Of a DNA stretch of 64,000 bases, positions 15,486 through 26,468 are shown piece after piece. The DNA is from Magnetococcales bacterium. GTDB lineage: Bacteria; Pseudomonadota; Magnetococcia; Magnetococcales; JADFYX01. How positions within the stretch are numbered: the stretch's first letter is position 1; each line of letters opens with the position of its first letter. Made by a program: the position numbers and the translations under genes. Below the pieces are notes generated by a model. The model had not been told where the DNA came from. It ran no database searches and saw only the letters and a program-made list of their open reading frames with translations. The DNA is taken from contig PEAM01000006.1 in assembly GCA_002753565.1 (NCBI GenBank), positions 1 through 64,000 of the forward strand, given 5' to 3'.

Positions 15486-17783
15486 TTAATACCGTCTCCA
15501 CTCATGGCCCATATTATCATCGGTTATTGGCCGGGATTGGGCGGTTAGTTTTTGAATCTCTTCCGTACTTTTCAATCGGGAAAGTCTGTGTAAAATACCC
15601 TGAATAATCCTCTTGGAAGCAGGAGAGTCTTGCTGCAATACCGGCTGACCGTCGATGGTATAGTTGGTCAAAACCGCCCGCAACCGTTCAGGATCGGCCT
15701 GGATGGGGCTGTTCTTGGCAATCAGCAGGTTATACTGGGTAACAGCGGGAAAAACCAGCGTGGCAGACCGCTTGGCCTCCAGAGAGTTGGTGGTGTTGAA
15801 CATAAACAGCCCCTCCTCTTTAAGAGACGAACGGACGATATGAAAAAATTCGACAGAGAGCAGGTTGCTGTTGAAGCTCCGCCAGTGGTGGGTATTATTC
15901 ATATAGATCAGGTCGAACTTCTCCTCCGGATTGGCCTGCAGCCAGCGGCGACCGTCGTTAATGATAATCTCCACTTTGGGATTGTCCATCAGGGAGGCTA
16001 TTTCCGGGAACTGTCTGGTCACCTCCAGATAGCCGGGGTTGATCTCGATAATGGTCATTTTTTCCAGCTCAGGCAGGTTGGCAAGCACCTGAGCGTGGGC
16101 ACCGGAGGACATCCCCACCAGCAACACCTTTTTAATAGCCGGATGAAAAGCGGCCGGAACATAGGATGAAACCACGTTGTTATAAACGGTTGCCCCCGAA
16201 CCCGGCTCTTTTTGTTTCATTCTTTTGCGGTCAAGATAGGTGTTGACGGTGCCATCATACGCCCCGCCACCATAGACAACCCCTTTGTTGGAGACGGTTA
16301 TAACCCCGCTTCTGTTTTCAATCACCATCTTAAAAGTCTGCAGAGGGATATCGGCTTTTTTCAACCCCTTTTTATAGGTCAGTTTTTCATAGATCTGAGC
16401 GTAGAGAACCGGTGTCCAGACAACCATCACCACCGCAGCCAGAGAGATGGTCAGGGCGGCGCGCCAGAGGGGTTGGCGGTGTCGATCTCGTAAAACCACA
16501 AACATCAGCCAGGCCATGAGCAGTCCCAACAGCCCCAAAATAAGAGAGATCTGTTGAATCTTGAAGATATCCATCAGGATAAACCCGGTGATCAAGCTGC
16601 CAGAGACCGACCCGATGATATTGCTGACATAAATATAGCTTAAACCCGACCCAGCCTTGCTATCCGCCTTGACCGAGATATGGCTGAGGAAGGGGAGCAT
16701 CGCACCCCAGAGAGCAGAACCGAGGGTAATCAGGGGAAGTGAGAGGTTATAGTAGTAAAACATTTTATAGATCTGCCCCCCCGTACTCTGGCGGTCCATC
16801 AGGGCATAAGGGTCAAGAAACTGGATCATCTGTCCGATCAAGGGGATCAGCAAAAAACCGACCCCATTGGCACAAACCAGCAGAATAAAAATCAGCCGCA
16901 GGGTTTTCATCTTGCCTTTTCTGGCCATGTCGGCAGAGATCTTGTGACCGATAAGAGAGCCAAAGGCGACACCAATCAGAAAAAAGCCCAACACATAGGC
17001 GAGACTGCCAGCCTCTCCCCGAGTCAGGTAGGCGTAAACACGAATCCAGACAATTTCAAAGGAGAGAGAGATAAACCCAGCCATACCGGCAAAGAGCATG
17101 GCCATGGGAATTTTCAGGGAGATGGGAGAGAGGTCCGGCGAGGGGTCGTGAGACTCTGTTAGACTCTGTTGGGGCTTAGGCGACGCCTTGGTAAGAAGAT
17201 GGGCGACCAAGGCCCCGCCACCCACCATCAGATTCAGGGCGACCGCCACGTAGACCGTCCCCTGTTGACCCAGGTGGCCCATCAAATAACGGGCCGCAGC
17301 AAAGCAGGCAAACGCAGAGCCCAAGGTATTGACAAAATAGAGAATCCCCACCGACTTGCCCACACTGCCCGAAAGGCGTACCAGATAGGCGGTGAGAATG
17401 GGCAGGGTAGCCCCCATCAACATGGTGGGCAAAAGAACCAGCAGAAAGGAGATGATGCCCAACTCCCAGAGAGGGCTTCCGGCATGGGTGCCGCCAACCC
17501 ACTGAAAAAGGGCAAGTGAGATCAGGCCAAAAGTGCCGATGGATAGCTCGATCAGAGCAAAGGCTGCCAACAGTCGGTGTTGAATCCTATCCGACAGATA
17601 ACCGCCCCCCAAACTACCCAACCCCAACCCCGCCATAAAGGCCGCCACCACCACGGTAACCGATTCGATGTTGGTTCCAAACAGGGTAAAAAGAGACCGC
17701 TGCCAGACAATTTGATACAGGAGGGCTGGAATACCGGAGAAGAAAAACAGGGGGTAGATCCAGAGAAGGTTGTGTTTTTTCAT
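15486..17783 (-). CDS. Membrane protein with C-terminal spermidine-synthase-like domain
   Basis: A 765-residue protein. The N-terminal two thirds hold about twelve to fourteen hydrophobic helices (first one IYPLFFFSGIPALLYQIVWQ). The last roughly 270 residues form a soluble SpeE-type Rossmann domain (KKVLLVGMSSGAHAQVLANL, then TIIEINPGYL, then EIIINDGRRWL and KFDLIYMNNTHHW). This is the known family of fused MFS-like/spermidine synthase proteins. The glycine-rich loop GGGxG of true spermidine synthases reads VGMSSGAHA, and the catalytic aspartate region reads MNNTHHW, so aminopropyl transfer is doubtful. The substrate is unknown. It is a single gene with its own 3' hairpin. Confidence 0.82.
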   Translation of the reverse strand: MKKHNLLWIYPLFFFSGIPALLYQIVWQRSLFTLFGTNIESVTVVVAAFMAGLGLGSLGGGYLSDRIQHRLLAAFALIELSIGTFGLISLALFQWVGGTHAGSPLWELGIISFLLVLLPTMLMGATLPILTAYLVRLSGSVGKSVGILYFVNTLGSAFACFAAARYLMGHLGQQGTVYVAVALNLMVGGGALVAHLLTKASPKPQQSLTESHDPSPDLSPISLKIPMAMLFAGMAGFISLSFEIVWIRVYAYLTRGEAGSLAYVLGFFLIGVAFGSLIGHKISADMARKGKMKTLRLIFILLVCANGVGFLLIPLIGQMIQFLDPYALMDRQSTGGQIYKMFYYYNLSLPLITLGSALWGAMLPFLSHISVKADSKAGSGLSYIYVSNIIGSVSGSLITGFILMDIFKIQQISLILGLLGLLMAWLMFVVLRDRHRQPLWRAALTISLAAVVMVVWTPVLYAQIYEKLTYKKGLKKADIPLQTFKMVIENRSGVITVSNKGVVYGGGAYDGTVNTYLDRKRMKQKEPGSGATVYNNVVSSYVPAAFHPAIKKVLLVGMSSGAHAQVLANLPELEKMTIIEINPGYLEVTRQFPEIASLMDNPKVEIIINDGRRWLQANPEEKFDLIYMNNTHHWRSFNSNLLSVEFFHIVRSSLKEEGLFMFNTTNSLEAKRSATLVFPAVTQYNLLIAKNSPIQADPERLRAVLTNYTIDGQPVLQQDSPASKRIIQGILHRLSRLKSTEEIQKLTAQSRPITDDNMGHEWRRY

Positions 17784-17938: not shown

Positions 17939-18577
17939 CTAGGTGACTTTTTTCAAGGCCTGTTCGATATTGATGGAGGAGGAGGAGACCTCGCCGATAA
18001 TCCGGTCAATCTCACCAGCCAGTTCACGGGCAACCCGGGCGGTGCTTTTCACCTCTCCCGCTACCACGGAAAACCCCTTGCCAAACTCACCAGCCCGAGA
18101 GGCCTGGATACCGGCATTGATGGCGAGAACCTCTAGTTCGTTGGATATTTTTTCGATGCCGTGGAGGGCTTTGGAGGCATCACGGGTGTTGCGGTCAATC
18201 TCCTTGCGGACACTGGAGAGGTCGGAGAAAATCTGCTGGTTGGCATGACCGCGGTTCTCCTCAAGCATTTTAATCAGCAACAAGGCTGCCGCAGAAGGGA
18301 CTACCTTACCCTCTGCTTTGTAGGTTTCGATCTCTTCGTCTGTCGAGCCGGCATCGAAAAGAAAATCTACCGGAAAGTTTTTCATGGCCATATCCAGCCG
18401 GGTCAGGGTTTTCAAGCCCATTTTGGCGGCAGCCTTCATAGCGGGGGCCTCGCTGTCAGCATCGACAACGAACAGAAGCTCTATTCCCTTGCTTTTGGCA
18501 AAGACCTCGAGTAACGACTTGCCCTCAATACCACCACCGACAATGCCGACCTTTTTGGTTCCCTCTATTTTTTCCAT
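17939..18577 (-). CDS. Soluble fusion of a Rossmann NAD-binding-like domain and an MCP signalling tip
   Basis: A 212-residue protein without membrane segments. Residues 8-105 look like a nucleotide-binding Rossmann unit: KVGIVGGGIEGKSLLEVF (GxGGGxxG), beta-strand LLFVVDADSE ending in acidic residues as in NAD-binding folds, then VDFLFDAGSTDEE. Residues 115-205 resemble the tip of a chemoreceptor signalling domain: LEVLAINAGIQASRAGEFGKGF then SVVAGEVKSTARVARELAGEID. The MCP part is truncated to the hairpin core and lacks methylation helices. It may report redox or metabolite state to the CheA/CheW array from the cytoplasm. The domain calls rest on motifs; the role is inferred. Confidence 0.78.
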   Translation of the reverse strand: MEKIEGTKKVGIVGGGIEGKSLLEVFAKSKGIELLFVVDADSEAPAMKAAAKMGLKTLTRLDMAMKNFPVDFLFDAGSTDEEIETYKAEGKVVPSAAALLLIKMLEENRGHANQQIFSDLSSVRKEIDRNTRDASKALHGIEKISNELEVLAINAGIQASRAGEFGKGFSVVAGEVKSTARVARELAGEIDRIIGEVSSSSINIEQALKKVT

Positions 18578-18841: not shown

Positions 18842-19324
18842 ATGCAAACAATACCTTCCCCGATCACACTCCCTGCCACCGAAGAGAACAGCCAAGGGAA
18901 AAGAGCCGAAAAAAAAACGGTGAAGAGCCGAAAAAAAAGTCCTCGAACCAAAAGAGCACCCCACTCAGCCTCACCCCATGGTACAACCCGCGACTGGCTC
19001 TCCCGAGAAAAACGAAAAACCTTGTTGGACAGGCTCTTAGGCGAGTTTCTTTTTCTCCACAAAGAGGCCATGGAGTCGGTTAAAGGGGAGGTGGTGGACC
19101 CCATCCAAAGGGTGGAGGCCCTGACCAAGCTCTCTCAGGCGCTGGACAGAACCCTCAACGCCCTGGTCAAGGCCACTCCCCACACACCGCATTTAACCGT
19201 TGCTGAAGATGTGTTAAAACATCAGGTGACTTTTGTTGAGTCCCACTATCCTCAACATGCTACGGCCCTGCTGACTATCTTGGAACCCTTTGGTCGAGAG
19301 TTGATCAAAATTTTTGAGGAGTAA
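18842..19324 (+). CDS. Hypothetical protein with basic N-terminal stretch
   Basis: A 160-residue product I do not recognise. Residues 16-45 are very rich in Lys/Arg/Ser and probably disordered. From about residue 50 to the end the sequence looks alpha-helical (LLDRLLGEFLFLHKEAMESV, then RVEALTKLSQALDRTLNAL, then LLTILEPFGRELIKIF). No signal peptide, cysteines or membrane segments are seen. The start has a weak GAGATGAGAG site. It is followed 35 bp later by the ferredoxin gene on the same strand. Other frames overlap its first half, so the call is only moderately secure. Confidence 0.55.
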   Translation: MQTIPSPITLPATEENSQGKRAEKKTVKSRKKSPRTKRAPHSASPHGTTRDWLSREKRKTLLDRLLGEFLFLHKEAMESVKGEVVDPIQRVEALTKLSQALDRTLNALVKATPHTPHLTVAEDVLKHQVTFVESHYPQHATALLTILEPFGRELIKIFEE

Positions 19325-19358
19325 AGAGGGGAATAATCCAATAACAGATGGGAGAGCC

Positions 19359-19631
19359 ATGAACACCTCACTGATTGCCTGCATCAAAGATAGAGCCACA
19401 GCCAAACCCTCTTGCGGCGGACGGGGCAGTGAAGCACTCGTCGACCAGATCGAGGCCGAGGTCAACCGCCAGAAACTCCCTATCGCAGTTGTCCGAATGC
19501 GCTGCCTGGGAGAGTGTTCCAAAGGACCCAACATGCGCATTGCACCGGGTGGGCAGTTTTTTTATGGCGTAAAAGAGGAGACCATCCCCGAGATCATCAC
19601 CGCCTTGAAAGAGGCGCTGAACAGCCCCTGA
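19359..19631 (+). CDS. Thioredoxin-like [2Fe-2S] ferredoxin
   Basis: A 90-residue protein of the thioredoxin-fold (2Fe-2S) ferredoxin family (as in NuoE C-terminal and CysD-type ferredoxins). The ligands are C8 and C19 (CIKDRATAKPSC), and C48/C52 in RCLGECSKGPN. The ATG at 19359 follows a GGGAGAG site. It probably acts as a small electron carrier. Its neighbours (a hypothetical protein upstream, an ATP-grasp protein convergent downstream) do not reveal a partner. Confidence 0.85.
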   Translation: MNTSLIACIKDRATAKPSCGGRGSEALVDQIEAEVNRQKLPIAVVRMRCLGECSKGPNMRIAPGGQFFYGVKEETIPEIITALKEALNSP

Positions 19632-25043: not shown

Positions 25044-25406
25044 TCACGCAAAACTCTGGGAGAGGATGGAATAGATCTGCCTCTCCGTCAACTTGAAAGC
25101 CCGAGCTAACTCCGGCACTCTCTCCCCCTCACCATAGCGCAAGATGATGGTTCGATTGCGCACCTTTTTTTTGGCCCGGCTCGCCCGAACAATTGTCAGG
25201 GTCTCCCCTCCAAAATAGGCACTCATCTTCTGAGCCGCTTCCAGGCCAAGCAGGTTGGCCAATCGATGTTGGGCCTTCAAGTTGCGTGGAATAAACAGAC
25301 GGGTTCCCCCACACAGGTCCAGCAGTTTAATTGCCCCCTCCAATCCAACCACCTCTTTAATCTCGACAAGAGAGGCCGGCAAATCTGACTCTTGAAAATG
25401 GATCAT
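25044..25406 (-). CDS. Mor-family transcription activator (phage Mu type)
   Basis: A 120-residue protein with the layout of Mu Mor/C activators. Its middle reads GGTRLFIPRNLK, and it ends in a helix-turn-helix, ILRYGEGERVPELARAFKLTERQIYSIL. In Mu, Mor switches on the middle genes as a dimer that recruits RNA polymerase. A strong AGGAGA site precedes ATG 25406, with a sigma70-like promoter about 65 bp upstream. No other Mu genes lie nearby, so it is a lone activator paired with a divergent repressor. Confidence 0.83.
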   Translation of the reverse strand: MIHFQESDLPASLVEIKEVVGLEGAIKLLDLCGGTRLFIPRNLKAQHRLANLLGLEAAQKMSAYFGGETLTIVRASRAKKKVRNRTIILRYGEGERVPELARAFKLTERQIYSILSQSFA

Positions 25407-25439
25407 CTCTCTTCTCCTGGAAAAAGTGGCGTTGCCTCG

Positions 25440-25449
25440 GTTCGGTTTT
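25440..25449 (+). promoter_or_regulatory. GTTCGGTTTT box 1
   Basis: First of four identical 10-mers in the Mor-repressor gap. It lies about 14 bp downstream of the predicted start of the Mor transcript, where a bound protein would block elongation. It is probably a repressor site; this is inferred from the repetition. Confidence 0.6.
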
Positions 25450-25469
25450 TCATTTTGCTTCCCTATCGC

Positions 25470-25498
25470 ATTATCAAACTGTTTAGATGAAGGAACAA
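25470..25498 (-). promoter_or_regulatory. Sigma70-like promoter for the Mor-family gene
   Basis: On the minus strand TTGTTC (25493-25498) and GATAAT (25470-25475) are separated by 17 bp. The start of transcription would be near 25463, giving a leader of about 57 bases. Confidence 0.55.
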
Positions 25499-25523
25499 AA
25501 CCTTGCTATATATCATATTTACT

Positions 25524-25742: not shown

Positions 25743-26468
25743 ATGGATGGTCAAGATGTCAAGCCAGGGTTTCAAGACCGGCTCCGACTGGTAATCGGAG
25801 ATCAGGCACCGTTTCGATGGGCCAGAGAGGTAGGAATTGGTAAATCAACCTTTGATGGATTGTGGAATAAAGGCACCAGACCCCAGTTAAAGACCCTCCT
25901 GAAGATCGCCTGGGAGACCGACATCTCCCTAAGTTGGCTCTTAACCGGAAAAGGGGGCCACAAACTCCCGTCCACTTCAGAAGAGTACCAGCCAATCACT
26001 CTCTGCTCACAAACCGAACCGCTTAACACACTCTACCCCCTCCATCGCGAAGGCTATATTCTTGTGCCACGCTACAGCATTCAAGAGTGCCCCAAAGCAC
26101 ACAACTTTTTTTGCCAGGCCCAACAGGTGGATCATCTGGCTTTTAAAGCTGGCTGGATTATTCAGGATTTAGGATTGGACCCAGAAAAACTCGCCCTTAT
26201 TCCTGTCCAGGGTGACAGCATGACCCCCACCCTCAACCAAGGGGATCTACTGCTTCTCGACAGAAGAGAGCGGCTGGTGCGTAGCGATGGAATTTATGTG
26301 GTTTGCCAAAAGAGGCATTTAATGCCCAAAAGGCTACAACGAGGGTTTGATGGTTCGGTTATGATAAAAAGCGACAATCCCATCTACGAAACTCAAACGG
26401 TACAAGAGAGAGAGGCCGCACGACTGACCATTGTCGGACGAGTGGTCTGGGCCGGCCATCGGATGTAG
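25743..26468 (+). CDS. CI/C-type phage repressor with S24 peptidase domain
   Basis: A 241-residue protein with a helix-turn-helix at about residues 10-70 (APFRWAREVGIGKSTFDGLW, then LKTLLKIAWETDISLSWLLTGKG) and a LexA/CI-like S24 domain in the C-terminal half (LIPVQGDSMTPTLNQGDLLLLDR with the nucleophilic Ser, and the probable general-base Lys in LMPKRLQRGFDGS). Such repressors cleave themselves when RecA-ssDNA forms, so the lysogenic state breaks under DNA damage. ATG 25743 has a GGAG site 8 bp upstream. It is divergent from the Mor-like gene, and the four boxes between them are the likely operators. Confidence 0.88.
   Translation: MDGQDVKPGFQDRLRLVIGDQAPFRWAREVGIGKSTFDGLWNKGTRPQLKTLLKIAWETDISLSWLLTGKGGHKLPSTSEEYQPITLCSQTEPLNTLYPLHREGYILVPRYSIQECPKAHNFFCQAQQVDHLAFKAGWIIQDLGLDPEKLALIPVQGDSMTPTLNQGDLLLLDRRERLVRSDGIYVVCQKRHLMPKRLQRGFDGSVMIKSDNPIYETQTVQEREAARLTIVGRVVWAGHRM

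Follow-up and report, generated by a model that had tools for sequence, protein, structure and literature searches.

Within the window (the whole stretch of DNA that was analyzed, 64,000 nucleotides), a minus-strand gene encodes a 212-residue soluble protein in which a Rossmann domain is joined to the signaling tip of an MCP (Table 1). The initial annotation had read the protein in this way from the letters alone, and Pfam, profile, and structure searches bear out this reading. Of the two outcomes that would have refuted it, lack of a Rossmann fold in the N half and failure of the C half to form the MCP hairpin, neither was observed. The plus strand of the interval 17939-18577 contains internal stops. 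Transmembrane, HAMP, and methylation segments are all absent from the protein; residues 1 to 95 make up the Rossmann domain, and the hairpin helix follows directly. Soluble chemoreceptors likewise lack transmembrane segments.

Table 1. Features of the fusion gene, its product, and its divergent neighbors
Feature	Position	Strand	Basis
CDS, Rossmann-MCP tip fusion, 212 aa	17939..18577	minus	ATG start, full ORF, relatives
Rossmann input domain, N-terminal, residues 6-101	18275..18562	minus	AF2 strands; acetaldehyde dehydrogenase and Gfo/Idh folds
Glycine-rich loop G14-G-G-I-E-G19, GxGxxG intact in window copy	18521..18538	minus	sequence
D39, end of beta2	18461..18463	minus	invariant in 22 aligned members
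MCP signaling hairpin, residues 97-212, ~57 residues per leg, equivalent to Tsr ~324-439	17942..18289	minus	Pfam MCPsignal; superposition
Tip core, residues 146-177	18047..18142	minus	alignment to Tsr
Tip-core equivalences: E147 (Tsr Q374), Q158 (E385), R161 (R388), E164 (E391), F169 (F396), K177 (R404)
DUF1804 protein, divergent neighbor, conserved upstream partner in several families	18842..19324	plus	PF08822 1.9e-18; synteny
Thioredoxin-like [2Fe-2S] ferredoxin, divergent neighbor	19314..19631	plus	PF01257 6.4e-5, just under cut-off; synteny

Upstream of the gene, several families have a divergently oriented unit that comprises DUF1804 or some other small protein together with a degenerate GGDEF protein and a [2Fe-2S] ferredoxin; the divergent upstream ferredoxin also occurs in the MC-1-like and other families. 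In two families, f4 and the MC-1-like f13, MsrB is found on the other side of the gene. While the ferredoxin and MsrB neighbors are suggestive of a redox theme, the conserved ferredoxin neighborhood could be inherited proximity. No che genes were recognized adjoining the fusion gene in the loci examined. In relatives from families f12 and f14, a Mor-like activator and an S24 repressor lie directly downstream of the fusion gene; the window holds homologs of these downstream genes, a Mor-like activator and S24/CI-like repressor pair at 25047-25505 (minus) and 25743-26468 (plus). At 15486-17783 (minus), the window also encodes a 765-aa protein that joins an MFS-like transporter to a spermine/spermidine synthase domain.

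Rossmann domain and its nucleotide site

AlphaFold2, supplied with 22 relatives, modeled the whole chain with a pLDDT of 88 and gave a Rossmann fold N-terminally and an MCP hairpin C-terminally; the whole-chain pTM of 0.53 means that the mutual placement of the Rossmann domain and the hairpin is not fixed by the model. Five strands (residues 8-13, 32-38, 56-58, 72-75, and 92-94) alternate with helices (17-27, 45-52, 61-67, and 81-88) in the beta-alpha-beta order, and helix then continues to the end of the chain. Modeled alone, the N domain reached a pLDDT of 84.8 and a pTM of 0.77.

Its best structural neighbors are NAD enzymes, among them acetaldehyde dehydrogenase 4lrs (Z 11.8, 91 residues, 2.2 A) and the NAD complex 6nor (Z 11.5, 91 residues, 2.3 A). 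MurC and formyltransferase folds score close behind, so that the fold by itself leaves the ligand unfixed. At the sequence level, the N half alone matched the acetylating acetaldehyde dehydrogenase family TIGR03215 at 1.2e-5, below the cut-off, in a single-sequence search against curated families, and a profile of the relatives matched solved acetaldehyde dehydrogenases with E values down to 8.8e-08. The catalytic C-terminal half of the acetylating enzyme is absent, and residues 97 to 212 form the MCP hairpin instead. The Pfam matches to the N half were weak, nearly all below cut-off, and split over GFO_IDH_MocA, NAD_binding_3, RS_preATP-grasp, and others. No single Pfam model fits the N domain, which belongs to an un-named family of input domains.

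A GxGxxG motif and an acid closing beta2, which usually contacts the ribose, are features of NAD-binding Rossmann folds. All three glycines (G14, G16, and G19) are present in the window copy; of 32 members, all keep the first, whereas 9 lack the second and 14 the third. Position 39 is Asp in 30 of the 32 and Glu in the other 2, Asp is invariant in the 22 aligned rows, and D39 is nearly invariant across all fusions. The putative nucleotide site is thus constrained yet not uniform. Since the beta2 acid is retained and the closest folds are NAD enzymes, NAD(H) is a plausible ligand and a reasonable first guess, and it is likewise plausible that the window protein would pass NAD(H) state to the chemotaxis array. 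However, part of the MCP branch has a degenerate GxGxxG motif, and these members may no longer bind a dinucleotide.

Distribution of the fusion and of its N domain

Scanning a genome collection gave 23 full-length relatives, which are all from Magnetococcales and 50 to 67% identical, and the search across the order found the same fusion in 33 of 48 Magnetococcia genomes, representing 13 of 17 genera and nearly always in single copy. One genome carries a second, very divergent copy (L053, G012:C22:60309-60932), which has Ser at the Tsr E391 position. Full-length orthologs in 13 genera rule out a gene artefact or a frameshifted receptor. The 15 genomes without the fusion include all 7 of genus g13 and the window genome's four congeners, of which some are incomplete; as it is missing from a whole genus and from these congeners, the gene is dispensable. 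Compared with the window copy across families and the order, the hairpin is 67 to 82% identical, whereas the N domain is 35 to 52% identical. Rows from the same family group together in the gene tree, which has few strongly supported deep forks.

The MCP-tip fusion was found neither in about 350 other Pseudomonadota genomes (E <= 1e-22) nor in 198 Nitrospirota genomes (E <= 1e-18), both weak negatives from sets without a positive control. The 198 genomes come from the phylum of L032 (Candidatus Magnetomicrobium), which we take to be Nitrospirota. When the N domain was searched by itself as a profile, on the other hand, matches came from 99 of 398 Pseudomonadota genomes; outside Magnetococcia, nearly all of these fall in family f18, which has small genomes and which we guess may be Zetaproteobacteria, plus f42, f23, and f82. 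The domain is also present in 107 of the 198 Nitrospirota genomes, with E values down to 1e-34. By sequence and family scans, its fused outputs include GGDEF, PAS-GGDEF, and GAF-HisKA-HATPase-REC-REC-GGDEF, and there are further fusions to LiaS/NarQ-like kinases, AtoS-like kinases, and NifA/AtoC-like AAA (sigma-54) activators. Stand-alone N-domain proteins of 135 to 149 aa exist as well; cyclases, histidine kinases, sigma-54 activators, and stand-alone proteins thus have the domain in common (L082-L101, L124-L142). Rossmann-GGDEF versions occur in two Magnetococcia genomes too (L055, L056).

Since the same domain lies N-terminal to GGDEF, kinase, and sigma-54 outputs, it is an input module, with the MCP tip as one output of several, and the MCP-tip fusion appears to be the Magnetococcia version of the N-domain architecture. 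The proposal that the nucleotide-binding-like unit acts as a sensor is strengthened by this shared N-terminal placement of the same domain. The glycines of GxGxxG are nearly always intact in the GGDEF and kinase fusions, in contrast to their relaxation in the MCP branch. The full-text literature, of which the open-access part was covered, contained nothing relevant on a Rossmann chemoreceptor or on such an input domain.

Signaling hairpin and its specialized tip

Residues 113 to 206 match MCPsignal (PF00015) with an E value of 6.6e-17 and 62.3 bits, against a curated cut-off of 34.6, and the MCP hairpin was also matched in the PDB profile search. Residues 113 to 212 superpose on Tsr 6s1k_E 340-439 over 100 residues at 1.4 A (Z 11.9), and the hairpin superposes on Thermotoga maritima 3g67 over 116 residues at 1.7 A (Z 12.0). 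Both legs align with 6s1k, 3g67, and 1qu7 at Z 11 to 12 (VIA-align; YfmS 9a72 included). This superposition on both hairpin legs rules out a single straight helix for residues 95 to 211, which are unbroken in DSSP.

By superposition, the hairpin covers Tsr ~324-439 only, and the methylation sites of Tsr lie beyond this range. As the hairpin is limited in this way, the methylation helices are missing and there is no CheR/CheB adaptation; a signal from the fusion protein, if any, cannot be adapted by methylation. The predicted structure and the superposition thus uphold the view that the methylation helices and the membrane sensor are gone and that a Rossmann unit stands in their place. Short as it is, a hairpin of such length can be enough for contact, since the receptor chain in 4jpb is a separate T. 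maritima hairpin of only ~90 residues. The 4jpb ternary complex has been used for modeling the CheA-P5/receptor interface (PMC6746300).

The initial annotation had called the signaling hairpin nearly intact, a description that underplays how specialized its tip is. With residue n of the fusion protein corresponding to Tsr n+227, the kept Tsr positions are N381, R388, E391 (30 of 32), F396, V398, and E402, with Lys for R394 and Lys for R404. Tsr R394 contacts CheA P3/P4 (PMC6746300), and the Lys at this position is invariant in the fusion family. With the CheA/CheW-facing core retained in the family, a contact with CheA/CheW is predicted. Three positions are changed in all 22 aligned rows, namely E385 to Gln158, Q374 to Glu147, and N376 to Glu149; these rows are the unbiased basis, as 32-member residue counts for 146-163 are circular, the members having been chosen by that motif. 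The other aligned tips of the window genome have Glu at E385 in 20 of 22 and Gln at Q374 in 19 of 22.

In ordinary receptors, E385-R388' forms an ionic lock between dimers within the receptor trimer and F396 stacks, and a Q344-K374' contact in a homologous transducer corresponds to Tsr 374-404 by its numbering (PMC8144572). The fusion family departs from the mixed-trimer contacts described there (E385-R388' and Q374-R/K404'): R388, K404, and F396 are kept, while E385 is Gln and Q374 is Glu. The Gln at E385 means that the E385-R388' lock is lost; a swapped 374-404 salt bridge is possible, and mixed trimers with ordinary receptors are doubtful. These substitutions point to a specialized, perhaps homotypic, trimer contact and, being unlike the genome's other receptors, mean that membership of a common array cannot be assumed.

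The window genome contains other unusual MCP proteins. In L120 (C76:186732-187148), an MCP-like protein of 342 residues, the tip deviates (SLNARIVAARAG) and places Val where Tsr has E385. Two further proteins, L115 (C49:66870-67190) with 165 residues and L119 (C71:58820-59158) with 161, consist of an MCP tip and have no sensor domain. Given these two, short MCP proteins are normal for the lineage, which lowers the surprise.

Proposed function and relation to known systems

We propose that the fusion protein works as a minimal receptor, soluble and non-adapting, through which an internal ligand acts on a chemosensory kinase, a reading that we give a probability of roughly 0.5. In this model, the N-terminal Rossmann domain would be a cytosolic input module, most likely binding NAD(H), a similar dinucleotide, or a small metabolite. 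Ligand binding would alter the domain, probably its dimer geometry, and the change would pass through a continuous helix from residue 95 straight into the MCP hairpin, which would form the usual antiparallel four-helix dimer. The hairpin tip would then contact CheA/CheW or a dedicated paralog, altering kinase output. Having no CheR/CheB adaptation, the protein would report internal state tonically, and its altered trimer-contact residues would favor homotypic assembly or a special coupling partner, not free mixing with ordinary receptors. The analysis shows both folds by prediction, the conservation of the family, the lack of methylation segments, the modular use of the N domain, and the tip substitutions; the dimer, the ligand, the CheA/CheW contact, and the direction of the effect we infer.

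With lower probability, the protein could instead be a structural or inhibitory part of the array, its hairpin filling CheW/CheA or trimer sites without ligand control and its Rossmann unit serving merely as a dimerization or docking platform. Relaxation of GxGxxG in the MCP branch, and not in the GGDEF and kinase fusions, would fit such a role, and sensor-less MCP proteins do exist, as seen in the two tip-only proteins of the window genome and in the DosM scaffolds of double-layered arrays (PMC9321776). Nevertheless, D39 and the nucleotide-site architecture are kept although the domain is just 35 to 52% identical to the window copy across the order, and its other fusions place it in the input position of enzymes and regulators.

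It is unlikely that the hairpin works outside chemotaxis, as a dimerization or recognition module for the DUF1804, degenerate GGDEF, or ferredoxin partner that would control another redox or c-di-GMP response: most CheA/CheW-facing and tip-turn residues are still invariant, a constraint beyond plain dimerization, even though the unusual tip NELEVLAINAGIQASRAG is itself invariant and the conserved divergent gene cluster lacks che genes. Far less credible still is a decaying receptor or a functionless chance fusion. While the patchy absence from 15 of 48 genomes might hint at decay, the ORF is stop-free and full length in 13 genera, the hairpin is 67 to 82% identical to the window copy across families, and start and end are fixed; these conservation data largely refute the idea.

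Beyond the minimal receptor itself, we offer as speculation, and as a rather improbable whole, a scenario in which an un-named, probably dinucleotide-responsive Rossmann domain has been plugged into most bacterial signaling outputs. These would range from c-di-GMP synthesis through two-component kinases and sigma-54 activators to the minimal chemoreceptor of Magnetococcia. This receptor would have re-cut trimer contacts, with the 374-404 pair replacing the 385-388 lock, and would form orthogonal complexes of its own, through which a chemosensory kinase would be informed of the internal redox state.

Three things are new here: the way the fusion is built, the tip changes found throughout the family, and an input domain that has no name. 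If the proposed mechanism is true, the redox or metabolite state inside magnetotactic cocci, which navigate oxygen gradients, would be tied directly to their chemosensory kinase at the molecular level. A 212-residue receptor without an adaptation segment would also be a convenient minimal system for what the tip alone can do, and identifying the ligand of the Rossmann module would account at once for many kinases, cyclases, and activators that are now orphans (107 of 198 Nitrospirota genomes and many Pseudomonadota).

Among known systems, Bacillus subtilis YfmS is similar in being cytosolic and short, with an MCP hairpin without membrane segments, and the YfmS-CheW model 9a72 superposes on residues 96 to 212 (Z 11.2, 1.3 A, 117 residues). 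However, YfmS has 286 residues in the model, the alignment ends at the hairpin, and its N-terminal part is unmatched to the Rossmann domain. Tsr/Tar-type MCPs share the signaling hairpin tip, whereas the fusion is without their periplasmic domain, transmembrane helices, HAMP, and methylation helices and carries Gln for E385, Glu for Q374, and Glu for N376. DosM and other sensor-less MCP proteins are similar in having MCP hairpins in cytosolic arrays without a normal sensor (PMC9321776); DosM, however, has two signaling domains and mostly no sensor, whereas the fusion has one hairpin and a Rossmann module. The NAD-binding half of acetylating acetaldehyde dehydrogenase (DmpF/TIGR03215) matches the N domain best in both sequence and fold; the N domain differs in lacking the catalytic half and, in many fusion members, the third Gly of GxGxxG. 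Finally, the un-named Rossmann-GGDEF, -kinase, and -sigma-54 proteins of Nitrospirota and small-genome Pseudomonadota have a homologous N domain, with the acid, four residues, and A-[PV]-[GA] after beta2, but they carry an enzyme or activator output in place of the MCP tip and a GxGxxG motif that is nearly always intact.
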